Assembly: GCF_000194605.1 (NCBI RefSeq)
Contig: NC_015321.1
Coordinates: 3,472,001-3,536,000, forward strand
Source: Fluviicola taffensis DSM 16823
Lineage (GTDB): Bacteria; Bacteroidota; Bacteroidia; Flavobacteriales_D; Crocinitomicaceae
DNA length: 64,000 bases
Direction of reading: 5' to 3'
The notes under the pieces are model-generated. The model was not told the DNA's origin and did not search any database. It worked only from the letters and a program-made list of their open reading frames with translations. Positions 10,028-34,138 of this stretch are shown in pieces. Each line of letters begins with the position of its first letter. The stretch's first letter is position 1. Both the position numbers and the translations under genes were made by a program.

Positions 10028-10375
10028 ATGTCATTGTTTAGAATAAAATACGGAAATATTTTGCTGCTCACATTAGTGATGTTAGTCGGTATTCCGTGTT
10101 CGATGAAAAGGGATTTGAGCCAATTGCTTCGCCCAGGATCATCTGACATAGCACTCAATGGAAAAACTAACCCCAAAACACTTTGCTCAAGTTTATATGC
10201 GCAACGGGAAGGTGATCAGAAAGTAGAATGTAAGAAAGCCGTTCTTCGAGTATCTCTTGCTAATGACGAACCACTTAGGGAGGGCTTAACCTCAATGATT
10301 AGCTTACCTGATCTGTTTTCGCAACAAAAAGAAAAAATTCCTTCATACCTGATATTTGAGCGCTTCCTGATTTGA
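10028..10375 (+). CDS. Hypothetical protein, first gene of the DoxX/DsrE unit
   Basis: This 115-aa frame starts with a hydrophobic segment (NILLLTLVMLVGIPC), possibly a signal peptide or lipobox-like end, and then a polar region with no motif I recognise. The promoter at 9980-10023 predicts transcription from about 10028, so ATG 10028 would be leaderless; in-frame ATG 10079 and 10103 are alternatives. It lies 52 bp before the DoxX gene. Coding status is moderately supported by position only. Confidence 0.5.
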   Translation: MSLFRIKYGNILLLTLVMLVGIPCSMKRDLSQLLRPGSSDIALNGKTNPKTLCSSLYAQREGDQKVECKKAVLRVSLANDEPLREGLTSMISLPDLFSQQKEKIPSYLIFERFLI

Positions 10376-10427
10376 TTAAAATCGTTTTACAGTTAATCGT
10401 AAACGCATTATTAATCAAATATTAGTT

Positions 10428-10847
10428 ATGAATAAACAACTCATGGTGAATGGTACTTCCGTTCTCATTTTTCGTATACTCCTGAGCGGCATTTTCATTT
10501 CGGCAGGTATATCACACCTTTTACAACCAGAAAAAGTTGCTGCCCGAATTAGTACGGCAGCATTTCACAAGTTCGCAGTATTTTTTGGAGATCCCCATTT
10601 ATTGGGCTTAATAACCGGGTATATTTTACTTGCTGGAGGTCTTGCGTTGCTCATGGGAATCTACGTACGCTGGGCTTCTATTGCACTTCTTTTCGTGCTC
10701 ATTCCCATTACGATCACCATACAATTAGGCAATGGCCTTCTTCATGGTCCTCTTTGGAAAAACATGGCATTGTTTGGAGGTTTGCTATTCTTCATTGTCA
10801 ATAATCCGAAGGTTTACAGTATTTACAATAAAAAATTAAAAAAATGA
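10428..10847 (+). CDS. DoxX family membrane protein
   Basis: This 139-aa protein has four hydrophobic helices and the DoxX-like pattern LIFRILLSGIFISAGISHLLQPEKVAARI with LITGYILLAGGLALLMGIYVRWA. DoxX/DoxD relatives include the small membrane subunit of thiosulfate:quinone oxidoreductase, so a role in thiosulfate oxidation is conceivable beside the SoxB-like gene, but most DoxX proteins have no proven function. It overlaps the DsrE-like gene by 4 bp. Confidence 0.8.
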   Translation: MNKQLMVNGTSVLIFRILLSGIFISAGISHLLQPEKVAARISTAAFHKFAVFFGDPHLLGLITGYILLAGGLALLMGIYVRWASIALLFVLIPITITIQLGNGLLHGPLWKNMALFGGLLFFIVNNPKVYSIYNKKLKK

Positions 10848-11287
10848 AAACATATTTTATCACCCTGCTGATCGTTCTTTGCATTTCAGGAACCAACGCA
10901 GCAAAAGCTCAGACATCTCTGGAAATTTCAAAAACAGAGCAGTCAATAAAAAAAAATGGAAAATATGCAATGCTGGTCATGAAAGCTCAACATTTGAAAG
11001 CTGCAATTATCACAGGCAAAGAATTCAAGGCTAAAAGCCCCAATATAGATTTCCAGGTTGTTATCTGCGGAGAGCTTGTAAAAGAAATCTCAGCCGATAG
11101 TCTGTTACAAGCTTTAGTCTTGGAAGCTATTCAGAACAAAGAAGTCAAATTCCTGTTCTGCGGCTTGTCTATTTCTCAATTGAAAATTGACAAAAACACG
11201 CTTCCGAAAGAAGTTCCGATAACCGATAATGGATTAATTTATCTGTTTGGTTTACAGGAACATGGTTACAAAACAATCATTCTTTAA
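10844..11287 (+). CDS. Exported DsrE family sulfur-carrier-like protein
   Basis: This 147-aa protein has a signal peptide ending near AKAQ and a DsrE-like domain (YAMLVMKAQHLKAAIITGKEFKAKSPNIDFQVVICGELVKEI ... KEVKFLFCGLSI). Cysteines occur in VVICGE and FLFCGLS, near the sulfur-carrying positions of DsrE/TusD relatives. The signal peptide places it in the periplasm, unlike cytoplasmic TusD. It overlaps DoxX upstream and lies 9 bp before the SoxB-like gene, so the three probably handle thiosulfate-derived sulfur together. Confidence 0.8.
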   Translation: MKTYFITLLIVLCISGTNAAKAQTSLEISKTEQSIKKNGKYAMLVMKAQHLKAAIITGKEFKAKSPNIDFQVVICGELVKEISADSLLQALVLEAIQNKEVKFLFCGLSISQLKIDKNTLPKEVPITDNGLIYLFGLQEHGYKTIIL

Positions 11288-11296
11288 AACCAGGCT

Positions 11297-12910
11297 ATGA
11301 AAATTGTATTTGTTGTAGTTGCGGCCGCAGTTTTTGTCGGCTGCGATCAGATAAAATCTCCAGAAAACACAGTGAAGACCATTACCATATTGCAGACATC
11401 AGACATTCACGCTTATCTGAATCCTCATACCGATCTGTTTGTTCAGGATGGTCAGGTTGTTTTTAGGGAAGCCGGAGGCCTGCCACAATTGAAAACCTTG
11501 TCTGACAGCATCCGGAAAACAAATCCCGGTGGTACGCTATTAATTGACGGAGGAGATCTTATTCAAGGTAGCGGTGCCAGTGTACGTTCACAAGGAAAGA
11601 TTTTTCCTCCTATCATTCAGGCCATGAATTACGACTTGTTGATTCCGGGCAATTGGGAAGTTATTTATGGTAAGCGTATCATGATGGAGGTAATGGGTAA
11701 GTATAAAACAAATGTTATCGCAGCCAATATGTTCCATGCTGAGGGAAATGACCCATTATTTCCTCCTTATTGGGTCACCGAGAGAAAAGGAGTAAAAATA
11801 GGCTTTATAGCATACAATGATCCTGAAGTTCCAGACCGGCAAAATCCGGCTTACAGCGAAGGCATAACATTCACTTCCGTAGAAAAAAATCTGCAATCGC
11901 TTATTGCTGAGCTTAAGAATGAAAAGAAGGTGGATATTTTGTTCCTTGTTGCCCATCTCGGAATTTCCAAACAAATCATGTTATCTAATGATCCAAAAGT
12001 CAAAGGTGTTGACTTTATCCTGGGAAATGATACTCACGAACGAATAAGACAGCCGATAAAAGGAAAATACGCGAAAGTAGTTGAGCCTGGTGCGTTCGGC
12101 TCTTTTCTAGGAAAGCTTGAACTGAAAGTTAAGAACCATAAAATTGTCAGCTACAGCTACGATTTGATAGAGGTTAATCCATCAAAATACAAAGCAGACC
12201 CTCATGTACAGCAGTTGGTCGATAGAGCTATTCTGCCTTATAAGAAAGAAATGCAAACGGTATTGGGATATACCTCAGCTCCTATATACCGATACCTCGT
12301 GGTCGAAAATCCAATGGACAATTTCATTACCGATGCGTTGCGCTGGAAAACAGGAGCTGATTTTGCTACTTCGAATGGCTTCAGGTTTGGAGTTCCTATT
12401 GTACCTGATGAAAGCGGAAGAGCTGAGATAACAACCGCCGACTTATGGCGTATGTTACCAGTAAACGAGCACATGAAAATAGGTACAGTCACGGGAAAGC
12501 AAATCAAACAGTGGCTCGAGAAGGAAATTAATAATGTTTTTGCCTCCAATTACCATGATCGTTTTGGAGGCTGGCTTGTCCGCTTTTCAGGAATGACCGT
12601 GAAATTTAATAGTTCCGCAAAAAAGGGTAGCCGTGTAGAGTCGATCACAATAAAAGGTAAACCCATAGAGCCAGACAAAACGTACAAAATGGCATCATGC
12701 AATAGAACGGGAGAACCGATTTCCACGATGTGCAGATTGAAGAATGCTGTCGATGTTTCTTTGCAGGACTACACTTTACACGATGCAGTTACCTCTTATT
12801 TAAATGAAAAACATACAGTTCATCCCGTAATAGACGGACGTGCAATTGCAACGGATCTTGGACCAGGTGCTTTTTCGCAGATGAAAGAGGGGAATTATAG
12901 TTTCAGATAG
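11297..12910 (+). CDS. SoxB-like metallophosphoesterase/5'-nucleotidase family lipoprotein
   Basis: This 537-aa protein has a lipoprotein signal (AAAVFVGCDQ). The metal-binding N-terminal domain has TSDIHAYL, LLIDGGDLIQGS, GNWEVIYG, LVAHLG and LGNDTHE. The C-terminal substrate domain has NGFRFGVPIVPD and FGGWLVRFSGM. GNWE-xx-YG and the order of motifs resemble SoxB thiosulfohydrolase more than nucleotidases (GNHE), though the N is nucleotidase-like. SoxB releases sulfate from SoxY-bound thiosulfate; no soxYZ is visible here, so the substrate is uncertain. It is last in the 10028-12910 unit, and a strong bidirectional terminator follows. Confidence 0.8.
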   Translation: MKIVFVVVAAAVFVGCDQIKSPENTVKTITILQTSDIHAYLNPHTDLFVQDGQVVFREAGGLPQLKTLSDSIRKTNPGGTLLIDGGDLIQGSGASVRSQGKIFPPIIQAMNYDLLIPGNWEVIYGKRIMMEVMGKYKTNVIAANMFHAEGNDPLFPPYWVTERKGVKIGFIAYNDPEVPDRQNPAYSEGITFTSVEKNLQSLIAELKNEKKVDILFLVAHLGISKQIMLSNDPKVKGVDFILGNDTHERIRQPIKGKYAKVVEPGAFGSFLGKLELKVKNHKIVSYSYDLIEVNPSKYKADPHVQQLVDRAILPYKKEMQTVLGYTSAPIYRYLVVENPMDNFITDALRWKTGADFATSNGFRFGVPIVPDESGRAEITTADLWRMLPVNEHMKIGTVTGKQIKQWLEKEINNVFASNYHDRFGGWLVRFSGMTVKFNSSAKKGSRVESITIKGKPIEPDKTYKMASCNRTGEPISTMCRLKNAVDVSLQDYTLHDAVTSYLNEKHTVHPVIDGRAIATDLGPGAFSQMKEGNYSFR

Positions 12911-14178: not shown

Positions 14179-14677
14179 TTGCAATGTCCTGACCAGTCTA
14201 AACGTCAAATTTATCCTCGGACGTTTAATGGCTGCAGACTTGGCTATCTATGTTCCCATCCGGTTTGAAGATCCCGCTTCATCAATAGCAAAGATCGATT
14301 AGCAAGAGGTATCAACTTGTCTTCGAATCCTATCAGCAATATTTCCCTGCGTCCTGACAAGCCCTGTGCCCAAAGCCGCTTTTCATGTGCCATCTCACCA
14401 GCCCAACGCCATAAAAAGCCGCTTTTGTCACCGCACACAAGAGTAATTCACTGTTTCCGCTCCGTTACTCTACGCTCCTACAGCTTTTACACTTGCTTTT
14501 GCCACTGCACACTGATACCACAACAAATCTTTCCATTGATAGCTAATCTGTGTTTATAGATAGCCGTCAAATACTAATAAATTGCATTAAATAAATTAAT
14601 GTGGCTACTTAAAAAATCAAGGGATTCTAAATGTTGTTATATTTAGCGCGGATTAAAATATCGATAAACTGAATATT
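14179..14677. other. Non-coding spacer with hairpins, scar-like
   Basis: No convincing gene. It contains hairpin TAAACGTC/GACGTTTA (14199-14206 with 14220-14227) and an inverted repeat AGAGTAA/TTACTCT (14440-14446 with 14465-14471). The segment around 14458-14478 (CGCTCCGTTACTCTACGCTCC) resembles motifs at 20524-20541 and, in opposite orientation, 24606-24627. The C-rich, pyrimidine-biased composition differs from the flanking genes and looks like the remains of a mobile or conjugative element. Confidence 0.5.
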
Positions 14678-14896
14678 ATGACCAGGTTTGGAGAGTACTT
14701 AAACAAAAAATCGATAAAGAAAGCTGAAGTTTCAAGGAAAACCGGTATCAGCCCTTCTCGTTTGAGTGAGTTAGCATTAAACGAATCGACTAATCTCAAA
14801 GCAGAAGAGTTATATCTTGTTGCGTTGGCGATTGATGTTAATCCAATTGAAATTTTGGAAGTAGTGTTCAAAGATCTAAAACTAATCTCTAAGTAA
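14678..14896 (+). CDS. XRE family regulator, first gene of the GHKL-receiver-HNH-methylase operon
   Basis: This 72-aa helix-turn-helix protein (VSRKTGISPSRLSELALNESTNLKAEELYLVALAIDVNPIEIL) has one base between its stop and the start of the 812-aa ATPase gene, so it is almost certainly cotranscribed and probably autoregulates the operon, as C proteins do for restriction-modification genes. Such control would delay nuclease expression until methylation is established. Role inferred from size, fold and position. Confidence 0.85.
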   Translation: MTRFGEYLNKKSIKKAEVSRKTGISPSRLSELALNESTNLKAEELYLVALAIDVNPIEILEVVFKDLKLISK

Positions 14897-14897
14897 G

Positions 14898-17336
14898 ATG
14901 GCTAAAATTCCATTTACAGTATCGGCAAGAACCGCAAAATTAATAGGCCAAGAGAACTTCGCAACCTCAGAAGGAGCGGTTGTGGAGCTTGTTAAAAACT
15001 CCTATGATGCCGATGCAAAAAATTGCATCATAATATTTGAAAATCATGGAGATTTTAGTAAAACTCCATGCATTTATTTGATTGATAATGGAACTGGAAT
15101 GACTAGTGAGATTATCAAAAATCAATGGATGAAAATTGGAACAGATGATAAACTTCAAAACTATTTATCTGAAAGTGGCCGTGTAAAAACAGGAGCCAAA
15201 GGTATTGGCCGTTTTGCTCTTGACCGGCTAGGTCTTGGTTCGGAAATGCAAACTATTTCTGAAGATAAAGAGACAAAAATTATTGAAGCCTCAATCTGGA
15301 GTGTACAATGGAGTGACTTTGAAAAGCTAGGAGTTGCAATACATGAAGTCAACGCAAATCTAGATACTGTTGCGGAACTGGATATCAAATCCTATTTACT
15401 TGAACATTTTGGTGGTTTTGAGAAAATCAAAGAGGTACTGGAAGAAACAGAGTTTAAGTTCGGAACAATATTAAAAATTCATCCACCAAAAGATGAATGG
15501 GATGAAGAGTCAATGAAAAGCTTGTTTGACAATCTTGAAGTTTTGATTCCACCTCAAGAGCAACCGGAATTTAGTGTACATTTATTTTCCACGGCTCATC
15601 CTGAAGAATTTGGAAAGGTAAACAGTGCGTATTACGATGATTTTGACTATAAAGTTAAAGCAGAGTATTTGGCTGACGAATCACACAGTATTAAACTAAC
15701 GATCACAAGAGAAGAGTTAGATGTAAATTTACTGGAGAAATCATATGGCGAAGTATTTGATAATAAATTATTAAAGAAATTCCCATATACCTTATCCGAT
15801 TTCAAGAAAAAAACTTTTACAATATCCAAGACTATAACGGAACTCATAGGTTCTAAATCTAGTGATGAAAATCTTATCAGCAAGATAGGAGAATTTGATT
15901 TTACATTTTACTTTCTAAAAAACAAAATTGATCCGGAAGACAAGAAAAGATTTCCATATAAAAATATTTCCTCTGCCAATAGAAAAGCATGGCTCGAAAA
16001 ATTCGGTGGTGTAAAAATTTTCCGGGATGATTTTAGAGTACGTCCATATGGAGAGAGCGGTCAAGATTGGCTTGGTTTGGGAGAGAGACAAGCAAAAAGC
16101 CCGGCAGGACCAGGACAAAGATTGGGTGGTTATAGAATTGGGTCAAATCAAATTGCTGGAACGGTTAATATATCGAGAATTGCAAATTCAAGTTTTCAAG
16201 ATAAATCCGGTCGTGAAGGAATTCAGGAAAATGATGTTTTCGAACTGTTCAAGAATATTCTTATTGAAGTTATTGCAGAGTTTGAAAAGGATCGGAACAA
16301 AATAATGTTTTGCCTTGCACAGCTTGCTAAGCAGAAATTTAAGGACGACGAAGACAAGAGAAAGGCTCAAGAGGAGGCAGACCGAATTCTAAGAGAAGCA
16401 GCTGAACAGGCTGAAAACAATAATAATTCGAATGAAAATTCAGATGAAAATTCAGACGATAATTCAAATAATGGTACAGATGATAATTCAAGTAACTCTG
16501 GACCAACCGTTTCGGAAGTAATTCTTGCGAAGGCAACAAAAATTTTCGAACAGGAAATAGAAGATAAGGATGAAGAGATCCGTTTATTACGTGGATTAGC
16601 TAGTGTTGGCTTAATTATTTCGTCGTTTGCTCACGAGTTAAAGGGACTTAGAAGCAGGCTCTCACCGAGAACTGATTTTTTAATCGCGGAATTAAAGAAA
16701 TATATAAAAGAAGAAGACCTTAAATCTGTCAATCAACAAGATAATCCATTTTACATGATTCAACTGATCCAGGAAGAAGATGTAAAACTCAAACACTGGC
16801 TTGATTACTCATTGAGTACTTTGAAAAGAGACAAGCGAACACGAACCAACATTAACATTGGAGAGTATTTTGAACTTTTCGAAGCAAATTGGCATCAAGC
16901 ATTGGTACAACGAAAAGTCAATGTAATATTGAAAGGTAATAAGAACGCGACAAACGTAATTCGTGCGTTTGAAGTGGATTTGGATGCTATTTTCAATAAC
17001 CTTTTGTCAAACTCGTTAAGTGCATTCAAAGATAAAAAAGGCAATTATCAAAGGGAAGTGACCATTGATTGGGTTGATAAAGGAGAATTAATTGAAATTA
17101 CTTTTTCAGACAACGGTTGTGGACTAGCTCCAGAGTATCAAAGCGAGCCTGAGAAAATCTTTACTTACAACGAATCATCCAAAAGAGATCGCAAAGGGAA
17201 TAAAATAGGAACCGGAATGGGTCTTTATATCGTTTCATTGGTTATTAATGATTATAACGATGCAAAAGTTGAGCTTATCCCTGTAACGGATGGATTTTCG
17301 ATTAAAGTAACAGTACCTAAAAGAAAAAATCAATAA
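14898..17336 (+). CDS. Large defence ATPase with an N-terminal HSP90-like GHKL domain and C-terminal histidine-kinase-like module
   Basis: This 812-aa protein carries two separate GHKL sites. The first is HSP90/MutL-like: ELVKNSYDAD (about 30-39), DNGTGM (63-68), GAKGIGRFA (99-107). The second is kinase-like: a candidate phospho-His in FAHELKG (about 580), N box NNLLSNSLSAF (about 700), DNGCGL (about 738), GTGMGLYIV (about 771). An N/D/S/E-rich low-complexity linker (about 507-535) separates the halves. No membrane segment, so it should be cytoplasmic. A receiver protein follows directly, pointing to phosphotransfer. Likely the sensor or switch of the operon. Confidence 0.85.
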   Translation: MAKIPFTVSARTAKLIGQENFATSEGAVVELVKNSYDADAKNCIIIFENHGDFSKTPCIYLIDNGTGMTSEIIKNQWMKIGTDDKLQNYLSESGRVKTGAKGIGRFALDRLGLGSEMQTISEDKETKIIEASIWSVQWSDFEKLGVAIHEVNANLDTVAELDIKSYLLEHFGGFEKIKEVLEETEFKFGTILKIHPPKDEWDEESMKSLFDNLEVLIPPQEQPEFSVHLFSTAHPEEFGKVNSAYYDDFDYKVKAEYLADESHSIKLTITREELDVNLLEKSYGEVFDNKLLKKFPYTLSDFKKKTFTISKTITELIGSKSSDENLISKIGEFDFTFYFLKNKIDPEDKKRFPYKNISSANRKAWLEKFGGVKIFRDDFRVRPYGESGQDWLGLGERQAKSPAGPGQRLGGYRIGSNQIAGTVNISRIANSSFQDKSGREGIQENDVFELFKNILIEVIAEFEKDRNKIMFCLAQLAKQKFKDDEDKRKAQEEADRILREAAEQAENNNNSNENSDENSDDNSNNGTDDNSSNSGPTVSEVILAKATKIFEQEIEDKDEEIRLLRGLASVGLIISSFAHELKGLRSRLSPRTDFLIAELKKYIKEEDLKSVNQQDNPFYMIQLIQEEDVKLKHWLDYSLSTLKRDKRTRTNINIGEYFELFEANWHQALVQRKVNVILKGNKNATNVIRAFEVDLDAIFNNLLSNSLSAFKDKKGNYQREVTIDWVDKGELIEITFSDNGCGLAPEYQSEPEKIFTYNESSKRDRKGNKIGTGMGLYIVSLVINDYNDAKVELIPVTDGFSIKVTVPKRKNQ

Positions 17337-17337
17337 C

Positions 17338-17970
17338 ATGTACAGAATCGGATATATTGATGAAGATGCGGGACAAAGAAGTTCCTTCTATCATTTTTTA
17401 AAAGATGAGTTTGACATCGTTCTTTTTGAAATGAACGATACAACAACTGCAGATACACTCGTTGAAGATGTTTTCCAGTCGGGCATCGATATGTTGGTGC
17501 TGGATTTTCGCTTAGATGACAATGGGGATTTCGACTTTAATGCAGATTCATTAATTGAAAAAATTCAGCAACGAAATTACTATTACCCCCTTGTAATTCT
17601 CACTTCACATGAACTGGATGCTTTGGATCATATCTCTAACGCGAACCTAGTTAATGGTAAAGAGGATATGTTGGGCAAAAATGTTGCTGTATTTAAACAG
17701 AAATTATCGAAAATAATACAGTCATATAAGTCTCGATTATCAGAAGCTGAAAATGAGGTCCAAGAGTTAGAGAAAAAACGTCAAAGTGATACGGGTTTAT
17801 TACCTGCAGAGGAAGATCGCTATGTTGAGCTGAATAATTTCCTTGAAAAAACTACATCCGCAAAGAGTACTATACCGAGAAGTTTTTATTCAACAGACAC
17901 CAACAAAAAGTTAGATCAACTAATAGAAAAAACAGAAGCACTCCTTTCACGAATTGAAAATAAAGACTGA
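17338..17970 (+). CDS. Receiver-like protein with coiled-coil tail
   Basis: This 210-aa protein has a receiver-like domain: acidic pair in IDED (8-10), phospho-acceptor candidate D56 in LVLDFRLDD, and T89 in VILTSHE. A long helical, charged C-terminal region (QSYKSRLSEAENEVQELEKKRQ) is a coiled coil, with no DNA-binding domain. It starts 1 bp after the kinase-like gene and overlaps the HNH gene (TGATG). It may carry a phosphoryl signal from the ATPase to the nuclease or methylase. The domain is divergent, so receiver is a likely rather than certain call. Confidence 0.75.
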   Translation: MYRIGYIDEDAGQRSSFYHFLKDEFDIVLFEMNDTTTADTLVEDVFQSGIDMLVLDFRLDDNGDFDFNADSLIEKIQQRNYYYPLVILTSHELDALDHISNANLVNGKEDMLGKNVAVFKQKLSKIIQSYKSRLSEAENEVQELEKKRQSDTGLLPAEEDRYVELNNFLEKTTSAKSTIPRSFYSTDTNKKLDQLIEKTEALLSRIENKD

Positions 17971-18584
17971 TGTACCCATTTAGAATTAAAACTCCGGAAC
18001 ATAGGCCAGATAGAGCAGTCTGTGACCATTATTCTTCATACAGAACTACGCTGAGAGAGGATTTTGAAAATCGCTGTGGGTACTGCGATAGTTTAGATTT
18101 AATTCGAATTAGAAGTTTTGCTATTGACCACTTCATTCCTCAAAAACCAAAGGATTTCACACATACTGTTCCACCAAACGATTATTACAATTTGATTTAT
18201 GCTTGTAACTATTGTAATACTTATAAATCGAACAAATGGCCAACCAAAGATGCCAGCCATCCAAATGATGGAAAAGAGGGCTTTATCAAACCGACTATTG
18301 ATGATTATAAATCGAGATTTAATAGATCGAAGGAAGGACGTATAATTCCGGTTAACGAAGGGGATTTAGTAGCTAAATATATTATCGACGAACTAAAGCT
18401 TTGGCTTCCTGTACACGAACTTATGTGGAAGCTAGAAAAACTCAAATCTCAAAATGACAAAATTAATTCCGCCCTAGAAAAAATAACAGATGAAACACTG
18501 AGAAGTGAGGTTCAGGGAGTTCATTACCAAGTATTACTAATGCTAAATCAAATACAGGATAGTATTTTCAAAGAGAATGAATAA
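17970..18584 (+). CDS. HNH endonuclease
   Basis: This 204-aa protein has a zinc-type HNH core: CGYC (36-39), DHFIP (53-57), a following asparagine-containing PPNDYYNLIYACNYCNTYKSNKWP with CNYC (79-82), which is the classic DH-N-CxxC HNH arrangement. A helical C-terminal third (VHELMWKLEKLKSQNDKINSALEKI) may bind partners. It overlaps the receiver gene upstream by 1 bp and the methylase downstream by 8 bp. It is the obvious nuclease effector of the operon. Relatives occur with retrons, Septu and other defence systems. Confidence 0.88.
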   Translation: MYPFRIKTPEHRPDRAVCDHYSSYRTTLREDFENRCGYCDSLDLIRIRSFAIDHFIPQKPKDFTHTVPPNDYYNLIYACNYCNTYKSNKWPTKDASHPNDGKEGFIKPTIDDYKSRFNRSKEGRIIPVNEGDLVAKYIIDELKLWLPVHELMWKLEKLKSQNDKINSALEKITDETLRSEVQGVHYQVLLMLNQIQDSIFKENE

Positions 18585-20403
18585 GGAATTACAAACATAT
18601 CTCAAGTCTTATTCGTATGATCCGATCAAGGTCAATAAGCTTATCGTGTCCAATTTTTTGAATGCTAATTCAAAAGACAAGGTTAAAGGTAAATTACTAT
18701 CATCTCTAAGAATCAAGAAAAACTCTCCAGATTTCAAATTGGTTGAAGAATTCTCTCGAATTCATACATTACGATCGATTGAAGATTTAATTGAAGCATT
18801 TGAATTTGTTATTTCACCTCAGGAGAAAATAGTTTCTGGGGCTGTTTACACACCTGAATCAATCAGGGATTATATTATCACAAGTACTTTATCCAATACG
18901 AATGACTTAACAGGTGTGAACCTATGCGATCCGGCATGCGGTTGTGCAGGTTTTCTATACACTGCTGCGAAATATTTAAAGCAGCAAACTGGGAGAACCT
19001 ACAAACAGATTTATCGCGACAATATTTTTGGTTTGGATATACAGGAGTATTCAATTGAGAGGTCCAAAATATTACTTTCTTTAGCAGCCTTACTTGAAGG
19101 TGAAGATGTTGACTTCGATTTCAATTTATTCACAGGAAACGCTCTTTCGTTTAATTGGAATGAAGAAATAACGGGCTTTGAAGGATTCCATGTAATTGCC
19201 GGAAATCCACCTTATGTCTGTTCAAGAAATATTGATGATGAATCCAAAGACCTTTTGCAGAATTGGCAAGTGTGTTCTACAGGTCACCCTGATTTGTACA
19301 TTCCTTTTTTTGAACTTGGAATGACTTACCTGAGACCTGGTGGTATTCTTGGGTATATCACTATGAATTCCTTTTTTAAAAGCATCAATGGGCGGGCAGT
19401 TCGTGAATATTTAGCTCAATTTGACAATACAATTATTGATTTCGGTGGATATCAAGTATTCAATTCAAAGTCTACCTATACATGCATCTGCTTCATTCAG
19501 AATCGCGCATCAGATACACTGAATTACGCGAAACTGAATTCTCTGGAGGCTCTAAATGAGAATATCCAATTTCAGACAATTAGTATTGAAGAATTGGATC
19601 ATTTTAATGGTTGGAATCTTCAGGAAATAGAATTACTTAATCGAATCGAATCAGTTGGCACTCCACTTGGTGACAAATTCAAGACCAGAAACGGAATAGC
19701 AACATTAAAAAACAATATTTACATCTTCAAACCAATCGAAGAAGATGAAAATTTCTACTACTTGCAAAATGGTCATGTTTATCCTATTGAAAGAGGAATT
19801 TGCACAGACATTATAAACTCAAACAAATTCACTAAACAGTCGTCTGTTGATGCTATTCGAGAGAAAGCCATATTCCCATATCGCTACGTTGATAACAACG
19901 TTCAATTAATCGATGAACAAGAATTCCGTGATGCTTATCCAATGGCTTATCAATACTTGAGGGATAAACAAAAAATTCTAGCTGATCGCGATAAAGGAAA
20001 AGGAAAGTATGAGAAATGGTACGCATACGGACGAAACCAGTCACTAGAAAAAATGCCATTTAAGTTATTCTTCCCGCACATTTCATCTACAAGTCCAAAC
20101 TTTGTAGAGAATGAGGAACAAAATCTTCTATTTTACAATGGGCTTGCTTTAGTTGCTAAAACGCGTGAAGAAATCCAGGTAATGAGAAAAGTACTTGGTT
20201 CAAGATTATTCTGGTTCTACGTAACAAAATCAAGTAAGCCTTACGGATCTGGTTATTTCTCATTAAGTCGGAATTACATTAAAGGATTCGGTATCTATCC
20301 TTTTGATAAAAAAGAAATTGCTTTCCTTATCAAAGAAAAAAATCAAAAAAAGATAAACGAATTCATTGAAGAAAGGTACAAAGTAGATCTTTCTGAAAAC
20401 TAA
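18577..20403 (+). CDS. Eco57I/TaqI-class N6-adenine DNA methyltransferase
   Basis: This 608-aa protein has SAM motif I DPACGCAGFLY (from residue 118) and catalytic motif IV NPPY (210-213), preceded by GAVYTPESIRDYI as in class gamma methylases. The C-terminal 300 residues, with PHISSTSPNF and GSGYFSLSRNYIKGFGI, resemble TaqI-like specificity domains. There is no nuclease motif in the chain, so cleavage must come from the HNH partner. It overlaps HNH by 8 bp and ends the operon. Confidence 0.88.
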   Translation: MNKELQTYLKSYSYDPIKVNKLIVSNFLNANSKDKVKGKLLSSLRIKKNSPDFKLVEEFSRIHTLRSIEDLIEAFEFVISPQEKIVSGAVYTPESIRDYIITSTLSNTNDLTGVNLCDPACGCAGFLYTAAKYLKQQTGRTYKQIYRDNIFGLDIQEYSIERSKILLSLAALLEGEDVDFDFNLFTGNALSFNWNEEITGFEGFHVIAGNPPYVCSRNIDDESKDLLQNWQVCSTGHPDLYIPFFELGMTYLRPGGILGYITMNSFFKSINGRAVREYLAQFDNTIIDFGGYQVFNSKSTYTCICFIQNRASDTLNYAKLNSLEALNENIQFQTISIEELDHFNGWNLQEIELLNRIESVGTPLGDKFKTRNGIATLKNNIYIFKPIEEDENFYYLQNGHVYPIERGICTDIINSNKFTKQSSVDAIREKAIFPYRYVDNNVQLIDEQEFRDAYPMAYQYLRDKQKILADRDKGKGKYEKWYAYGRNQSLEKMPFKLFFPHISSTSPNFVENEEQNLLFYNGLALVAKTREEIQVMRKVLGSRLFWFYVTKSSKPYGSGYFSLSRNYIKGFGIYPFDKKEIAFLIKEKNQKKINEFIEERYKVDLSEN

Positions 20404-21102
20404 TCTTCTGTTGGAATCAATTAGGTTTTCAATCCATAATCCTTCTAAAATCACAGGGAAGGTAAATCGGTCTTCCTCCTGGTCTTCACAGCTTCATAAA
20501 ACATAAAAACAAGGGTAATACAAGCTCCGTTGCTCTGCGCCCTTGTTTATAGCGTTCACTATAGCCAATAGTTCAGAATTCACTTTTGGCTGTTCACTTG
20601 TTTTCTTCGCCTGTTCGTCCTGCGTCGTCAGTCGCGGCTACTCTGCCACCCCAAGCCCCTGAAAAGGTGTTCCCGGAAGCTCGTCCCTCACTCTCGTCCA
20701 CAATTAATTCATGGGGTGTCACCGCCGCTTAAGTAATGCTCGCCTGCTACATCGCTCGGGCTTCGGGTTTGTCACATTTTTTGTAGCCAGGCACAGCCAC
20801 TTGCGCAAAACAAAAAAACCGCCAAACCCTCGTGCATTCTGCATAGGTCATTCCCACAGTTTCCAACTGTTCTCCATTTCCACCCTCGCTCAACTCGCGG
20901 GCGGCTCGCGTCGTTCCAGTCGTACCTTCTTCCACTTGCTTCACAGCTTCCGGAAACCTCCAGCTGTTCGCCTGCTGCCTTGCTCCACGCGGCAGCGCTC
21001 AGGGCTGTTTTACCTAGACTATAATAAAATTTATGTCATTTTGGCATTAAATGTTTTTGGGAACACTGTTTGATAGAGATAGATTTATAAATTAATCTAA
21101 TC
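20404..21102. other. Long C-rich non-coding spacer between two defence systems
   Basis: About 700 bp with no credible gene; open frames in it are low-complexity and rich in S, R, P and C. It contains a 9-bp inverted repeat AAACAAGGG/CCCTTGTTT (20507-20515 with 20540-20548) that encloses GCTCCGTTGCTCTGCG. The cytosine bias is abrupt relative to both neighbours. I interpret it as a remnant of a larger mobile element that separates the methylase operon from CBASS. The last 60 bp, AT-rich, must hold the CBASS promoter, but I cannot pick the boxes. Confidence 0.5.
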
Positions 21103-22086
21103 ATGCTACTGAATAATAATCAATTAGGCGTCTTTGTCAAAAAGATAAAACTTCAGCCAGAAAATATGGCTAAGTACAGAGATCAACTCACAAATCTGAA
21201 AGAGAAACTAGAAAAAAAGATATCTGACGACACAAGTAATGGTTTGAAGGTTACCAAATATCTGATCGCTGGCTCATGGAAAAAACACACAATATTAAAA
21301 CCAACTGGGGAAAACCCTATTGATATTGATTTGATTCTGTTTGTTTCAGGGGATAATAATGTTCAAAATGATCTGAAAAAGCTCTACGATTACATCATTG
21401 AGTACCTGAAAGCGATTTACCCTCAAAAAGATATTGACAGAGATGTCGATGCTGAAGGAAACACTAAATCGCTCACGATTACATTTACAGGTTCCGGATT
21501 ACAGGTAGATATCGTTCCTGTAGTTTCATTGGCCTCTCCAGCTGAATATGTATGGCAACCAAGCAGACGGGGAGGAAAAAAGTACATTACAAGTATTTCA
21601 AAACAATTAGGGTTTTCAGCAAATCTCAGAAAGAATAATCCTTCTTACACGTCTATTGTTAGATCACTAAAATGGTGGAAGAACTATAAAGAACTATGTC
21701 CAACAGATTCAGAACCTGGATTATCATCTTTTACTATTGAACTTATCGTCGCGTATTTGGATGAAGAGTTTGGAGTGGAAACCAATATCGAAGAAGGAAT
21801 TATTAGATTCTTCCAATTCATGAGCTCACCAAATTTCCCGATAATTAAGTTCAGTGATTCGATTAATTCTGTCCCTGCAACATTTGACTCACCAATATAT
21901 GTAGCAGATAATACAAATAAGGAAAATAATGTCGTTAAACGACTTGATCGCACCAAATGGCAAGAAATATTTGACGAAGCCGAGGCAGCTTTTGACACAT
22001 TGAATATTGCACAATCTAAAAATAACGAAGGAGATACCATCCAAGAATGGAAAAGTGTTTTTGGACCATCTTTTAATATTAAATAA
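21103..22086 (+). CDS. CBASS CD-NTase (oligonucleotide cyclase)
   Basis: This 327-aa protein has the nucleotidyltransferase signature GSW (57-59), two metal-binding aspartates in DID (D74, D76) and the third in LQVDIVPV (D136), so the site looks intact. The helical C-terminal domain follows CD-NTase architecture. Followed by HORMA and TRIP13-like genes, it is the cyclase of a type III CBASS that makes a cyclic di- or trinucleotide signal on phage infection. Nucleotide product not predictable with confidence here. Confidence 0.93.
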   Translation: MLLNNNQLGVFVKKIKLQPENMAKYRDQLTNLKEKLEKKISDDTSNGLKVTKYLIAGSWKKHTILKPTGENPIDIDLILFVSGDNNVQNDLKKLYDYIIEYLKAIYPQKDIDRDVDAEGNTKSLTITFTGSGLQVDIVPVVSLASPAEYVWQPSRRGGKKYITSISKQLGFSANLRKNNPSYTSIVRSLKWWKNYKELCPTDSEPGLSSFTIELIVAYLDEEFGVETNIEEGIIRFFQFMSSPNFPIIKFSDSINSVPATFDSPIYVADNTNKENNVVKRLDRTKWQEIFDEAEAAFDTLNIAQSKNNEGDTIQEWKSVFGPSFNIK

Positions 22087-22088
22087 CT

Positions 22089-22598
22089 ATGTACGGAACT
22101 ACTACTAAAACCAGTACTTACACAGTACTTGACATCAGAAAAACATTTGAAGGCTGCGAAGCTGATATTAGAACAATTGCTAGAAGAACAGGAAAATGGT
22201 CTATGGAATACGTGGATAATATTTTCCATGACATACTAAAACTCGCTGAGGGAAATTACTTAAACTCAGTTGATATTATACTTCAAGAAAATGTATCGGA
22301 TAAGGTTGTAAGAGCTTCTAAATTCCTCGTTAATTCACTTGGAAATGCAAGTGATAGTGACAGAGCCGGAAAAAATAATGATTGGACTGATATTCCTAAC
22401 ACACATCTTTCTGTCATTTTGTCATACACCCAGAAATGGAAAATGCTTACTGCTGAAGGTAAAAAAAATGTGACCGAAAACTTTAAAGTTTCCTGGGGAC
22501 CGTCATCAATAGATAACAGTTTTCCTCATTTAGCGAAGAATGACGCTCAATTATACGCAAGTAAAGGGTATGAACTTCAAAAAACCAACTACAAATGA
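22089..22598 (+). CDS. CBASS bacterial HORMA protein
   Basis: This 169-aa protein matches bacterial HORMA domains of CBASS: STYTVLDIRKTFEGCEADI at the start, VRASKFLVN in the middle, LSVILSYTQKWKML, and a C-terminal WGPSSIDNSFPHL ... YASKGYELQK safety-belt region. In type III CBASS, HORMA closes around a peptide and activates the CD-NTase. It begins 3 bp after the cyclase gene and overlaps the TRIP13-like start by 4 bp. Only one HORMA gene is present. Confidence 0.88.
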   Translation: MYGTTTKTSTYTVLDIRKTFEGCEADIRTIARRTGKWSMEYVDNIFHDILKLAEGNYLNSVDIILQENVSDKVVRASKFLVNSLGNASDSDRAGKNNDWTDIPNTHLSVILSYTQKWKMLTAEGKKNVTENFKVSWGPSSIDNSFPHLAKNDAQLYASKGYELQKTNYK

Positions 22599-23482
22599 TA
22601 GAATCAATATTTGATAACATCCTAGAATTGCCTAGTGCTTCAATTGCCGAAAGAACAAAAAATCTGATCGGTTTTGAAAGCAAATTTGAGCGAATCTTTT
22701 CAAATCTGAAATTGTTGCTTGATCAAGAAGGATTGATTGAGTGGAGTAAGAAATTTCACAAGGTTGAACTTCCAATTATTGGTCAGTTAAAAGATAAATA
22801 CCCGCTAATTATCCTCGCTGGAGATGCTGGTACTGGAAAAACTGTTTCGGCTGAAGCTATAGCTGACAGGATGGTAAGGGAGCTGAAAAAGGAAGGTTTT
22901 TTCCTGAAATTAAATACAAGAGTTAGAGGAGAAGGTTTGCATGGTCAAATGGGAAATTTAGTAAATGATGCTTTTTCTGAATTAAAGAGACAAGCAGGAA
23001 AACGTAGAATTGCTTTTCTTTTGATTGATGAAGCTGATGCAATAGCATCAACGAGATCAACAATGCAAATGCACCAGGAAGAAAAAGCAGCAGTAAACAC
23101 ATTGATTCAAAAAATTGATGAAATACGTGAACTGAACGGCAGAGCAGTCTTATTTATGTCAACAAATCGTCTTCATTTTATTGACGAAGCAATTGTTAGA
23201 CGTGCTGCAATTATTTTGGAATTCGAAAGACCTATTAAAGAAGAAAGGATTGAGTTATTTAAACAAAGTCTTGAAGGAATTGACTTTTCCACAAAGCAAT
23301 TAGAACATTTAGCAGAAATTACGGGTCCGGAAAAAAATGATGGACTTGGTTTTTCATTTTCTGATATCAGACTTAGAATTCTTCCGGAAGCCATCGCTGC
23401 TTCATTTCCTGACAAAGAACTAACATATGAAATTCTAACGGAAACAATTTCTAAAATAAAACCTAGCCCTCAAATTATATGA
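22595..23482 (+). CDS. CBASS TRIP13/Pch2-like AAA+ ATPase
   Basis: This 295-aa AAA+ protein has Walker A GDAGTGKT (76-83), Walker B LLIDEADAIAS, and a sensor region STNRLHFIDEAIVRRA with arginines. TRIP13-like remodellers in type III CBASS open the HORMA protein and switch the cyclase off, preventing self-activation. It overlaps HORMA upstream and the NUDIX effector downstream by 4 bp each, so the operon is strictly coupled. Confidence 0.9.
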   Translation: MIESIFDNILELPSASIAERTKNLIGFESKFERIFSNLKLLLDQEGLIEWSKKFHKVELPIIGQLKDKYPLIILAGDAGTGKTVSAEAIADRMVRELKKEGFFLKLNTRVRGEGLHGQMGNLVNDAFSELKRQAGKRRIAFLLIDEADAIASTRSTMQMHQEEKAAVNTLIQKIDEIRELNGRAVLFMSTNRLHFIDEAIVRRAAIILEFERPIKEERIELFKQSLEGIDFSTKQLEHLAEITGPEKNDGLGFSFSDIRLRILPEAIAASFPDKELTYEILTETISKIKPSPQII

Positions 23483-24300
23483 AAAAACTCATACCATTTA
23501 TAGTGGCAATAATCCTAATGATTATTGGCTTTATTGAAAATAAGCACTTTTGGGAAACGAAGTTTGGTCAAGCTGGCATTGTGACATGTATTACACTTCT
23601 TGTTACATTCATAACGGATAACTATGGAAAAATTAGATTTCATTTTATCACAAAATGGCTTCACGGAAAGAAAGACATACGTATATCCATTGCATATCTA
23701 TACCGCATAAAATCTGGAAATTCTTATCTTTTAGTGAAAAGTAGAACGAGAAACTATTATCAGCCTGTTGGTGGCTGTTACAAAACACTTCCGGGTTCTG
23801 AACAGAAATTTGAAGATTTAGGAGTTAAGCCGGATCGGAAATTTGAAACAGAAAAAGGTATTGCTAAAAATGATTTGCGAGTATATGTTAAAGGAAAATA
23901 TGTGATAGATTTTTTAAAATGGTTTGATTCAAAAAAGGATAGAGAAATTTCACCTTGGAGAGAGTTTTGCGAGGAGTTAATTGACACAAGTATACTCCCG
24001 TGGAAACAATTTCGATTCATTGATTACAAATTTAAAGATCAAGTAAGATCTCCAATTATTACAATGGATAATGGAGGAAAAGGAATGTTCATTTTTGATA
24101 TTTTCGATCTTGTTGTAAATGATGAGCAAAAGCCAATCTTAGAGAAATTGCAAGAACAAACTGCCTCTGAATATATTTGGGCAACTGACGAATTAATTCA
24201 ATCTTTGGGTCATGATATTGGTACAAAACAATATCATTATGAAATATCTCCCCATACAAAATACGCTCAAAACCTAAAATGGTCAAAGGAGAACAAATAA
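23479..24300 (+). CDS. CBASS membrane-NUDIX effector (Cap16-like)
   Basis: This 273-aa protein has two N-terminal membrane helices (residues about 4-19 and 32-47) and a C-terminal NUDIX-like domain with SPWREFCEELIDTS, the R-E-x-x-E-E core of the Nudix box, and a NYYQPVGGCY strand. This layout is that of Cap16-type effectors, in which the NUDIX domain senses the cyclic nucleotide and the helices disrupt the inner membrane. It overlaps the AAA+ gene by 4 bp and ends the operon. Confidence 0.85.
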   Translation: MKKLIPFIVAIILMIIGFIENKHFWETKFGQAGIVTCITLLVTFITDNYGKIRFHFITKWLHGKKDIRISIAYLYRIKSGNSYLLVKSRTRNYYQPVGGCYKTLPGSEQKFEDLGVKPDRKFETEKGIAKNDLRVYVKGKYVIDFLKWFDSKKDREISPWREFCEELIDTSILPWKQFRFIDYKFKDQVRSPIITMDNGGKGMFIFDIFDLVVNDEQKPILEKLQEQTASEYIWATDELIQSLGHDIGTKQYHYEISPHTKYAQNLKWSKENK

Positions 24301-29504: not shown

Positions 29505-29705
29505 ATGAACCGAATAAAAGATGTTCTTCAAGAAAAAGGTATTAAGCAAACCTGGTTAGCAGAAAAGCTAGGTAAAAGCTTCAATATGGTTAATGATTAC
29601 TGCAACAATCGAAGACAACCAACAATTGAGGTTTTATATCAAATTGCTAAAATATTATCTGTTTCACCAAAAGAATTATTAAACGATCAATCGAATGAGC
29701 ACTAA
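29505..29705 (+). CDS. XRE family regulator heading the PLD-helicase/methylase operon
   Basis: This 66-aa protein (start ATG 29505; the longer frame upstream is hydrophobic and less likely) is a compact HTH: WLAEKLGKSFNMVNDYCNNRRQPTIEVLYQIAKILSVSPKELLN. Its 3' end overlaps the helicase start by 11 nt, so translation is coupled. By analogy to restriction-modification C proteins it probably controls the operon. It resembles the orphan at 13969. Confidence 0.85.
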   Translation: MNRIKDVLQEKGIKQTWLAEKLGKSFNMVNDYCNNRRQPTIEVLYQIAKILSVSPKELLNDQSNEH

Positions 29706-32700
29706 GTTTTTTACAAATACTGAGGATAAGACCGTTTTCCAAAAATTCAAAGGGATTCTTGAAAACATGAAAGACATTTATGCATTTCATGCAGTGGTTG
29801 GTTATTTCAGATCTTCAGGTTATTTTGCTTTGCAAGAATATTTAAAAGATATCAAAGACATAAAAATCCTTGTTGGAATCAATGTTGATGAAATGTTTGC
29901 AGAGTCACAACGAAAAGGATTGCTCTATTTTGGTGATGAAACTAAAACAAAACATGAATTTTTGAATTGGTTTATCCAAGACTTGAAAGATGCGAAGTAC
30001 TCAGAAGAAGTTGAAAATGGAATTTTAAAATTCATTGAAGATTTGATTTCTGGTAGAATTGAAGTTCGTGCACACAACTCTAAAACTTTGCATGCTAAGT
30101 TCTATTTATTTCTTCCAGAAGTACATACAGAGCATTCCGATGGTTGGGTAATAATGGGGTCTTCAAATCTCACTGAAGCTGGGCTTGGAATCAAAAAATC
30201 TCCAAATTATGAATTGAACATTGCATTGAAAGATTATGATGATGTTGAGTTTACTAAAAAAGAATTCAATATCCTTTGGGAGCAATCTACTCCAATCCTT
30301 CCAGCAGATATTAAAGAATTCAAGAAGAAGACGCATATTGGACAAAATTATACTCCTTTCGAGATTTACCTGAAATTACTAATCGAGTATTTCGGTAAGA
30401 ATATAGACTATGATCCTGATACCGTTGGAGATCTTCCCAAAACCTATAAAAAATTAAGTTACCAAATTGATGCAGTAAACCAAGGTTTCTCAATGTTAAT
30501 GGAGCATAATGGGTTTTTCCTTTCGGACGTTGTCGGTTTAGGTAAAACAATAGTTGCTTCAATGATTGCTAAACGCTTTATGATAGCTAATGGCTCCATG
30601 AACACGAAAATATTGGTTGTTTATCCACCTGCATTAGAAAAAAATTGGAAAAGCACATTCCGAATGTTTGGTTTGGATAAACACACAAAATTTATAACCA
30701 ATGGTAGTTTGGATAAGATTATCAAAGGTGATGATCTCAATTATTGGTTGAAAGAGGATTATGATTTGATTCTTGTTGATGAGGCACACAAATATAGAAA
30801 TCACGCTTCAGCAACTTTTGCTCAATTGCAGCGGATTTGTAAGGCTCCAAGAAATGGTGATGGATTGGTAAAAGGAAAAAACAAAAAAGTAATGTTGATT
30901 TCTGCTACGCCATTAAATAACAGACCTCAAGATTTATACTACCAATTATTATTGTTCCAGGATGCAAGAAAGAGTACTTTACCTGTAACAAATCTCCAGT
31001 CTTTTTTCGGACCAATAGTTCGTGAGTATAGAGACATAATGAAGGAAGATAATCCGGAAATACAGCGAATTCGTGATATGTATAATCAAATTCGTGAGCG
31101 AGTGATTTCTCAAATTACCGTGCGTAGAACAAGACGCGATTTAAAGAACTATCCTAAATACATTGATGATTTGAAAGAACAAGGAATTGTTTTTCCTGAA
31201 ATAGCTCCTTTAAAACCAGTTGTATACTCTTTGAATTCCAAATTAGGCAAGTTATTTTATCAAACCATTTTCTATTTAACCGATGAAGATAAAGTCAACT
31301 ATTTCAGGTATCAAGCTATTCGCTTCTTGAATCAAGACGACAGAGATAAATATTATGAGCAAGCAGTTCTCGTTTCGAAGTCGCTTGCTGGAATCATGAA
31401 AACATTGATGGTGAAACGATTGGAAAGTAGTTTTCATTCGTTTAAAATCACCTTGAGAAATTTGATGGTCTCAACTGAACGAATGATTCAAATGTTTGAG
31501 AATGACAAAGTCCTAATTGCTCCTGATTTGAATATAAATGAGTTAGTTGAGAAAGGCTTTTCAATGGAAGAGATTGAAGAGTTAATTGAAAAAATAAGTG
31601 TTGAAAATCCTAGAAACAATGTATTTAAAGCTGAGGATTTTGATCCGGATTTTTTGGAAGGGCTAAAAAAAGACCATTCGTTATTAAAAGACTTGTACAA
31701 ACAATGGTCCGAAATCAAAGAAGACCCCAAGTTGGATGAACTTCTAAAGACCTTTGAAAACGAATTGTTCAATAAAGAGATTAACCCAACTGGACAGTTA
31801 GTAATTTTTACAGAAAGCAATGATACAGCAGAGTATTTGTATGAAAAGCTGAAGGACTATGACGGCAAAGGTGTGTTGAAAATCTCTTCTGAAAACAGGA
31901 AAAAGGTTTTTGAAACGATTCAGAAAAATTTTGATGCAAATTACATTGGTGAGCGAAAAGACGATTACCATATTCTAATTACAACAGATGTTTTGGCTGA
32001 AGGTGTAAACCTACATCGTGCGAATGTATTAGTAAATTATGATACACCATGGAACGCAACCCGTTTAATGCAAAGAACGGGGCGTATTAATCGAATTGGA
32101 AGTATTGCAGGTGTTGTTTACAATTACAACTTCTATCCCTCGCAACAAGGTGATGAAGAAATTAAATTGTATAAAAATGCCCTAATTAAGCTTCAAGGAT
32201 TTCACAGTGCCTTTGGTGAAGATGCTCAAGTCTTTACGCATGAAGAGTTAGTTGAACAGTTTGAATTATTCAAAGAAGGAATGCCTGACGAAGAAGATAA
32301 GCGCCTCAAATATTTGCGTTTCATCCGGGAGTTTAAAGATGCTAATCCTATTGAATTTAAGCGTATCAAAGCTTTTCCTATGAAAGCGCGAACAGCTCGT
32401 AAGAATTCAAATGCAAAAGATGATTCATTGAATAACGCAAGCTTGGTCTTTTTGAAATCACCATATAAAATGGAGTTCTATAGTGTTTCTGCTGAAAAGA
32501 AGGTAGTGCCTTTAACTTTCATTGAAGCTGCTGAGTATTTTGAATCAAATGCTTCCGAACTGTCTGGTGAATTGCCTACTTCTCATTTTGGTCAAGTGCA
32601 AGCTGCATTAGATGAATTTGATAAAGAATTTTTCAGTTCTACTGACGAAGGTGTTACAACGACGGATAAAGCTGATGCAATTAGTGCGCAAGCCAAAAAG

Positions 32701-34133: not shown

Positions 34134-34138
34134 ACACC

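Follow-up and report, generated by a model that had tools for sequence, protein, structure and literature searches.

A MORC-like histidine kinase, a receiver protein and a PtuB-like HNH nuclease encoded as a conserved cassette beside an N6-adenine methylase gene

What does a histidine kinase do in one operon with a nuclease and a DNA methylase? Phosphorelays are best known for the control of transcription or motility. The question is raised by an intact five-gene operon at 14678-20403 of a 64,000-nt stretch of the Fluviicola taffensis DSM 16823 genome (NC_015321.1, positions 3,472,001-3,536,000 of the forward strand; genome 4,633,577 bases), here called the window. On the + strand it encodes an XRE-type protein, a histidine kinase, a receiver protein, an HNH nuclease and an Eco57I-type N6-adenine methylase. 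The kinase, receiver and HNH genes recur together in other genomes, and the co-evolution of their parts suggests a phosphorelay that is apparently wired straight to a nuclease beside a DNA methylase, an arrangement that would make restriction inducible and signal-gated. We consider it probable that the operon specifies a restriction-like anti-invader system triggered by a two-component phosphorelay.

Proteins of the operon

A first-pass annotation of this DNA had called a single operon of five genes with 1-bp gaps or overlaps. All five open reading frames (ORFs) lie where it placed them (Table 1), with gaps of 1 bp between the XRE and kinase genes and between the kinase and receiver genes, an overlap of 1 bp between the receiver and HNH genes, and an overlap of 8 bp between the HNH and methylase genes, which are thus encoded together. 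The two GHKL domains that it had ascribed to the ATPase are both matched in Pfam, as HATPase_c_3 at residues 23-130 (E 4.1e-20) and HATPase_c at residues 693-808 (E 2.8e-15). Profile matches of the kinase fall on MORC3, MORC4 and MutL as well as on histidine kinases, and its AlphaFold model (predicted local distance difference test, pLDDT, 81.6) has a Morc3-like fold by Foldseek and VIA-align. By this model the protein is a MORC-like GHKL+S5 module joined via a coiled coil to a histidine-kinase DHp-CA unit. The hallmark of MORC and paraMORC proteins, an N-terminal GHKL domain with S5 and intact ATP motifs, is present, and across the cassettes described below the residues checked at the two GHKL sites, in the N-box, DxGxG and glycine-box, show no variation where they align (57/57 or 59/59). 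The phospho-acceptor His579 is kept in 88/88 kinase frames of >=640 aa, in every clade, after removal of L071 and L089, whose kinase genes are broken into two frames. With only the first frame of these two aligned, the 59-row alignment has His at this position in 57 rows, with Gln in L071 and no aligned residue in L089.

The receiver protein matches Response_reg at E 0.004, under the Pfam cut-off, and a match at E 0.01 is found in 22 of 56 members of its family. Its AlphaFold model (pLDDT 89.3) displays an alternating receiver fold over residues ~1-118, followed by helices at 115-149, 156-172 and 186-209. Foldseek retrieved 47 PDB chains with this model at E <=0.001, the top two titled dual-sensor histidine kinase and the remainder mostly response regulators. 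As modelled, the 210-aa protein is a receiver fold plus a helical tail, and neither Pfam nor the AlphaFold model contains a recognised DNA-binding domain, in agreement with the earlier description of a receiver-like protein lacking one. Asp56, the acid pair (D/E then E/D) and Thr/Ser89 are each found in 59/59 cassettes. Together with the DHp His and the CA ATP site they make up the hallmarks of a two-component system, the receiver lysine being present in 50/59. This conservation of the phospho-acceptor residues bears out the claim that a nuclease and a methylase stand beside a genuine-looking His-Asp phosphorelay, and the fact that both acceptors are kept across phyla argues that phosphotransfer is in use.

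The HNH protein matches PF01844 (E 4.5e-8). Among PADLOC models PtuB gives a best E of 1.4e-15, the NCBIfam PtuB model gives 24.1 bits (cut-off 150), and a profile of the HNH family finds the retron Ec78 HNH as its best match in the PDB (E 1.4e-4); by these comparisons its closest named relatives are PtuB-type effectors. His54, Asn74 and Asn83 are each present in 59/59 cassettes, as are Cys36 and Cys79, while Cys39 and Cys82 are each missing in 10/59. No PtuA partner is encoded in the operon, where all ATPase domains are GHKL and where PtuA models leave the XRE protein, the kinase and the receiver unmatched. Besides the Eco57I domain, the methylase matches N6_Mtase in Pfam (E 3.3e-16), the PADLOC model MTase_II PDLC03335 (E 4e-97) and adenine-specific methyltransferases in the PDB (best 7lni, E 2.6e-18). 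A Pfam scan of the five proteins gave no helicase domain.

Homologues of the XRE protein (E 2e-25 to 8e-29) head 6 of 13 related kinase stretches examined. No inverted operator repeat (C-box) is found upstream of its gene within 14500-14720. An imperfect direct repeat, AAAATATCGATAAA (14655-14668) and AAAAAATCGATAAA (14705-14718), spaced 50 bp apart and containing ATCGAT, flanks the XRE start and is a possible operator.

Table 1. Features of the operon and of its downstream neighbour (positions in the window)
Feature	Position	Strand	Domains and residues
XRE/Cro-type helix-turn-helix (HTH) protein, 72 aa, probable operon controller	14678..14896	+	HTH_26 E 4e-9 (Pfam)
Histidine kinase, 812 aa	14898..17336	+	Predicted MORC-like GHKL+S5 ~1-470, coiled coil, DHp with His579, histidine-kinase catalytic domain ~645-810
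Receiver protein, 210 aa	17338..17970	+	Predicted receiver 1-118 (D8/E9, D56, T89, K108), helical tail 119-210
HNH nuclease, 204 aa, PtuB/retron-effector-like	17970..18584	+	PF01844; H54, N74, N83, zinc-knuckle cysteines
Eco57I-type N6-adenine DNA methylase, 608 aa	18577..20403	+	PF07669 E 2.6e-27
Operon of the cyclic oligonucleotide-based antiphage signalling system (CBASS): cyclase, HORMA, TRIP13, 2TM/Sa_NUDIX effector	21103-24300		Directly downstream of the operon

The cassette in other genomes

To the window we added 13 stretches from relatives and the best 80 of 309 relatives found in one GTDB genome scan, 94 loci in all. The query of that scan was built from four kinases, all cassette-bearing, and the scan is therefore biased to cassette bearers. 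Usable stretches numbered 92/94, since L104 had no recognised kinase ORF and L111 only a 68-aa kinase fragment. The kinase-receiver-HNH cassette, on one strand and within 7.5 kb, is found at 59 of the 92 loci, the window included; because L039 and L068 are apparently the same contig, the distinct cassettes number 58. Profiles place an N6-methylase beside the cassette in 56/59. Of the three cassettes lacking it, L063 and L106 are on contigs that end nearby and L105 lies well inside its contig. The gene order is kinase-receiver-HNH-methylase in 50 loci and methylase-kinase-receiver-HNH in six, with median spacings of 3, -4 and -6 bp. The junction between receiver and HNH is <=11 bp or overlapping in all 59 cassettes, and the receiver gene overlaps the kinase gene or lies within 30 bp of it in 57. 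This arrangement is far beyond chance. At the remaining 33 kinase loci, some of which sit on ending contigs, the kinase is accompanied by a C5-methylase (14 loci), a receiver and an N6-methylase (6), a receiver and a C5-methylase (4), a receiver only (4) or an N6-methylase only (2), or stands alone (3). Two plasmids, one recorded under Bacteroides finegoldii and the other under Salipiger profundus, also carry all four genes, as profiles confirm, and in both an integrase gene lies close by; a search of a phage collection returned just two partial, distant matches.

A reciprocal search covered 296 genomes of the window's class, taken as an unselected draw. The HNH profile gave five strong matches (E <=1.1e-53, next best 4.8e-15) and so did the kinase profile (E <=4.1e-286, next best 1.2e-85). 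The strong matches of both profiles come from a single set of five genomes, among them that of the window, and lie 643-689 bp apart. Each of the four other places has kinase, receiver, HNH and N6-methylase genes in that order; one of them (L148) is L054 again, and L149, L150 and L151 are additional loci outside the 92-locus counts. Co-occurrence of the core genes, on which the first-pass annotation had staked its proposal beforehand, is thus seen both here and in the frequency of the methylase beside the cassette.

In a quick tree of 88 kinases (frames <640 aa and L039 excluded; the placement of long rows, including L093 and L096, is unsure), 56 cassette kinases together with L052 and L087 form one group of 58 rows with a Shimodaira-Hasegawa-like approximate likelihood ratio test (SH-aLRT) value of 95. 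L052 and L087 are the non-cassette members of this clade, and their contigs end there. Judged by record titles, the cassette clade spans seven phyla, namely Bacteroidota, Pseudomonadota, Bacillota, Cloacimonadota, Acidobacteriota, Planctomycetota and Thermodesulfobacteriota, and C5-methylase neighbours go with other kinase clades.

Some features of these other kinases are recorded here in their own right. Kinases of other clades, mostly beside C5-methylases, are accompanied at L108, L109, L116, L117, L118, L119, L123, L129, L040, L107, L113 and L120 by longer receivers of 356-405 aa. Their C-terminal part is conserved, with invariant Cys-Asp, Arg and Pro positions, and among the PDB matches listed (60 of 132) the matches fall mainly on the receiver part. 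In sister systems, genes for proteins of 205-261 aa replace the receiver or the HNH (L041 562-1347, L042 10831-11586, L043 10209-11472, L045 10311-11680); none matches Pfam at E 0.01, and it is possible that they encode undescribed nucleases or receivers. Another Fluviicola genome (G013) has two different kinase systems on its contigs C5 and C1, the HNH cassette and a C5-methylase/HNH_2 version.

Wiring of the phosphorelay and competing explanations

Pairwise distances were compared over 53 loci (L039, incomplete cassettes and incomplete kinases left out). Kinase and receiver (0.93), receiver and HNH (0.87) and kinase and HNH (0.86) correlate closely, and the methylase correlates weakly with kinase, receiver and HNH (0.41, 0.43 and 0.29). 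Close pairs (50 pairs from 26 loci, with kinase identity >65%, the same methylase type and the methylase downstream) resolve three blocks, formed by DHp, CA and receiver, by receiver tail and HNH, and by the methylase. The receiver domain follows DHp (0.82) and CA (0.80) and is less tied to HNH (0.50-0.52), whereas the tail follows HNH (0.78-0.80) and reaches 0.22 with CA. Linear linkage as the sole cause of these blocks is disfavoured, because receiver and tail reach only 0.41 though they belong to one gene, and HNH and methylase only 0.13-0.27 though they are adjacent. The loci of Oceanihabitans (L064) and Maribacter (L073) illustrate the pattern: their kinases are 96% and their methylases 83% identical, compared with 43-49% for tail and HNH. 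At the DNA level the final 1.5 kb of the kinase gene is 91-99% identical, the receiver part 72-78%, tail and HNH 46-67% and most of the methylase gene 69-91%. This is apparently the trace of an exchanged block with ends near the receiver/tail and HNH/methylase borders. Conversely, the methylases differ strongly in type or sequence while the HNH proteins are alike in L051/L053, L062/L085 and L098/L102. The description of HNH and methylase as a restriction-modification (R-M) pair holds in that the two are encoded together; that they are a matched pair is doubtful, as HNH follows the receiver tail and the methylase varies independently. Taken as a whole, the co-evolution pattern suggests a wiring that runs from kinase to receiver to tail to nuclease.

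On the basis of these comparisons, which support phosphotransfer-gated cleavage at the level of sequence, we propose the following model. By analogy with MORC relatives, the MORC-like ATPase half of the kinase would close on DNA, and a cue, most likely foreign or unmethylated DNA, would activate the histidine-kinase half. The kinase would then autophosphorylate on the conserved His579, and the phosphate would move to the equally conserved Asp56 of the receiver, which co-evolves with DHp-CA. Phosphorylation may alter the helical tail and in this way activate or release HNH, a contact to which the tail-HNH co-evolution points. Judging from its family, HNH would cut nucleic acid, most likely DNA. 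The Eco57I-type methylase, whose independent exchange we have described, would mark host DNA as self and supply sequence specificity, and the XRE protein may set expression, akin to the controller protein of R-M systems. More tentatively, the system could be a restriction class of its own. A MORC-like DNA clamp, joined to a histidine kinase in one protein, would license a generic HNH through a His-Asp phosphorelay, an exchangeable receiver tail would plug in the nuclease, and an independently exchangeable adenine methylase, instead of a sequence-matched endonuclease, would give self-discrimination.

The main rival to this model retains the phosphorelay and makes HNH a sequence-blind toxic effector of abortive infection. 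The same relay would sense infection, the PtuB-like HNH would attack host or phage tRNA or DNA in the absence of sequence matching, and the methylase would only keep the sensor quiet on self DNA. The PtuB effectors of Septu and retrons, the nearest named relatives of HNH, speak for it: PtuAB of retron-Eco7 leads to loss of tRNA-Tyr and Septu PtuAB is reported to degrade DNA (PMC11555353). The nearly independent evolution of HNH and methylase (r 0.29) also fits a nuclease with no matched specificity. However, the PtuB matches are weak, the operon has no PtuA-type partner, and a methylase beside 56/59 cassettes is more than a pure toxin would need. We regard this explanation as unlikely, though it fares best among the alternatives. 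Still less probable is a conventional type II-like R-M system in which a paraMORC ATPase assists HNH and methylase by remodelling or looping DNA, with DHp and receiver serving as a scaffold and no phosphotransfer. The Morc3-like fold of the kinase agrees with it, and so do the linkage of MORC/MutL-type ATPases to R-M genes and the DNA remodelling or looping proposed for MORC-type proteins (PMC2292703). A scaffold, however, is not expected to keep the phospho-His, the phospho-Asp, the acid pair and the histidine-kinase ATP site across phyla, and matched type II specificity predicts a co-evolution of HNH and methylase, which is weak. Ordinary signal transduction, in which kinase and receiver regulate transcription beside an incidental HNH and methylase, can draw on the XRE gene and on the fact that soluble histidine kinase/receiver pairs usually regulate expression, but it is already disfavoured and highly improbable, given that the receiver ends in a helical tail with no recognised DNA-binding domain and that HNH lies directly behind the receiver in 59 cassettes, is present in each of the five genomes of the unselected draw whose kinase match is strong, and co-evolves with the tail.

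Several observations weigh against the signal-gated restriction model that we prefer. At L105 the profiles used recognise kinase, receiver and HNH but not a methylase, and upstream lies a gene for urocanase; the methylase may therefore not be essential everywhere. At the position of the receiver lysine, K108, nine cassettes depart from Lys (6 Arg, 3 Asn). The clearest exchange is confined to one flavobacterial clade of seven loci. When this clade is left out, the remaining 26 pairs keep the same ordering in weaker form, with receiver-DHp at 0.80 versus tail-DHp at 0.45, tail-HNH at 0.78 versus receiver-HNH at 0.58, tail-CA at 0.59 and receiver-tail at 0.65. As pairs share loci they are non-independent and the correlations are descriptive, and a few recombination events could produce the co-evolution pattern. 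Finally, the immediate neighbours of the cassettes were scanned for defence genes with PADLOC (1e-20), taking one neighbour of 150-1200 aa per side (95 proteins) against 75 controls from 15 arbitrary stretches of three genomes. Among the families listed for cassette neighbours (25 of 94) are retron-type reverse transcriptases, a type I specificity subunit and candidate-defence models, and those listed for controls (25 of 38) are mainly UvrD-like GajB and RtcR/PspF-like models, together with some DRT-associated models; counted per family, with one member each, and not per protein, the scan gives no ratio of defence enrichment.

Relation to described systems and genomic context

The nearest published systems are the HEF_HK kinases with adjacent Response_reg_2 proteins near R-M genes, with 91.6% linkage in 644 regions (Bellieny-Rabelo 2021, PMC8011034). 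As in those systems, the cassette combines a HATPase_c_3 - DHp - HATPase_c kinase, predicted to be soluble, with a neighbouring receiver-like protein in which no other domain is known, conserved His and Asp, and R-M genes nearby; both ATPase domains occur in the same protein in 50/50 cassette kinases. Membership of the published families was rejected, since PF19191 is found in 0/50 kinases and PF19192 in 0/56 receivers at E 0.01. The window kinase is not among PF19191 matches at E <=1 and the window's genome has no PF19192 match at E <=1, with matches above the cut-off in 2/59 genomes for either family. The two HEF_HK kinases included in the 88-kinase tree, L048 and L049, group with each other, apart from the cassette clade and on a long branch. 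The genes differ as well: in HEF_HK neighbourhoods C5-cytosine methylases are conspicuous and HNH_2 is the best-represented endonuclease domain (PMC8011034), whereas the cassette has an Eco57I-type N6-adenine methylase and a fixed PtuB-like HNH. The same source proposes HEF_HK as a branch descended from paraMORCs. We conclude that the cassette is a related lineage missed by the HEF_HK/Response_reg_2 profiles and not an unprecedented idea, the general idea having been published in 2021.

MORC and paraMORC ATPases were linked to R-M operons earlier (Iyer 2008, PMC2292703). With these the operon shares the N-terminal GHKL+S5 and a neighbourhood with nuclease and methylase; it differs in that an output half of the histidine-kinase type and a gene for a receiver are added, and in having no helicase domain in its five proteins. 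Detocs, which consists of the kinase DtcA, the phosphate buffer DtcB and the response regulator DtcC as summarised in PMC11728103, likewise couples histidine kinase/receiver logic to defence, but the window operon combines a single receiver with a separate HNH and a DNA methylase, its sensor half is MORC-like, and it lacks the DtcA/DtcB/DtcC set, and the first-pass annotation had rightly set it apart. Septu and the PtuAB of type I-A retrons place a PtuB-type HNH effector beside an ATPase, as the operon does with its PtuB-like HNH; in the window that ATPase is a GHKL kinase predicted to act with a receiver and not PtuA, and a methylase is present. CapK/CapS resembles the operon as a GHKL kinase system beside immune operons that responds to single-stranded DNA; CapK, however, phosphorylates a serine of a transcriptional repressor, and the available portions of that paper describe no receiver, HNH or methylase (PMC13373217).

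The claim of novelty is weakened. PADLOC names no system for the operon (the kinase matches only the REase_II model, at E 9e-4, and the receiver no model), a negative limited by the fact that the presence of Detocs models in PADLOC 2.0.0 was not checked, and none of the operon proteins reaches an NCBIfam model cut-off; on the other side stands the publication of paraMORC-type double-GHKL kinases with receivers near R-M genes (PMC8011034). Searches of the open-licence literature, which leaves subscription journals mostly outside, yielded in the text examined no description of the cassette or test of its function, though not all of these searches were aimed at this question. A 2026 prediction paper names HATPase and REC in a figure legend of unvalidated predicted systems, a combination that may or may not be the cassette (PMC13092281). 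What appears new here is evidence, drawn from sequence comparison, for a kinase-receiver-tail-nuclease wiring in a published, functionally untested kind of system. In eukaryotes, the MORC-like sensor half has relatives in the MORC silencing ATPases. A 2008 study (PMC2292703) tied bacterial relatives of these ATPases to R-M operons, and in 2021 they were still being described as poorly understood (PMC8011034). Small, conserved and made up of four genes once the methylase is included, the cassette has known His, Asp and HNH residues and makes the question of these relatives testable by point mutants.

Upstream of the operon, the flank at 10028-12910 has a DNA match in 0/13 other genomes of the genus. 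The CBASS operon does lie downstream, as had been noted in support of an immune role; we count such adjacency as weak evidence. Between the two operons lies a 120-aa frame of no recognised family (20711-21073). A second R-M-like operon at 29695-39618 encodes an SNF2/PLD helicase (1099 aa), a DUF1016/YhcG nuclease (380 aa), a type IIG-like methylase (1171 aa) and an AAA/SMC-like ATPase (655 aa). At 43864-45609 a TPR protein is encoded that carries an ATPase domain of the histidine-kinase type, and at 47878-50483 a TPR histidine kinase is followed by a LuxR-type response regulator.

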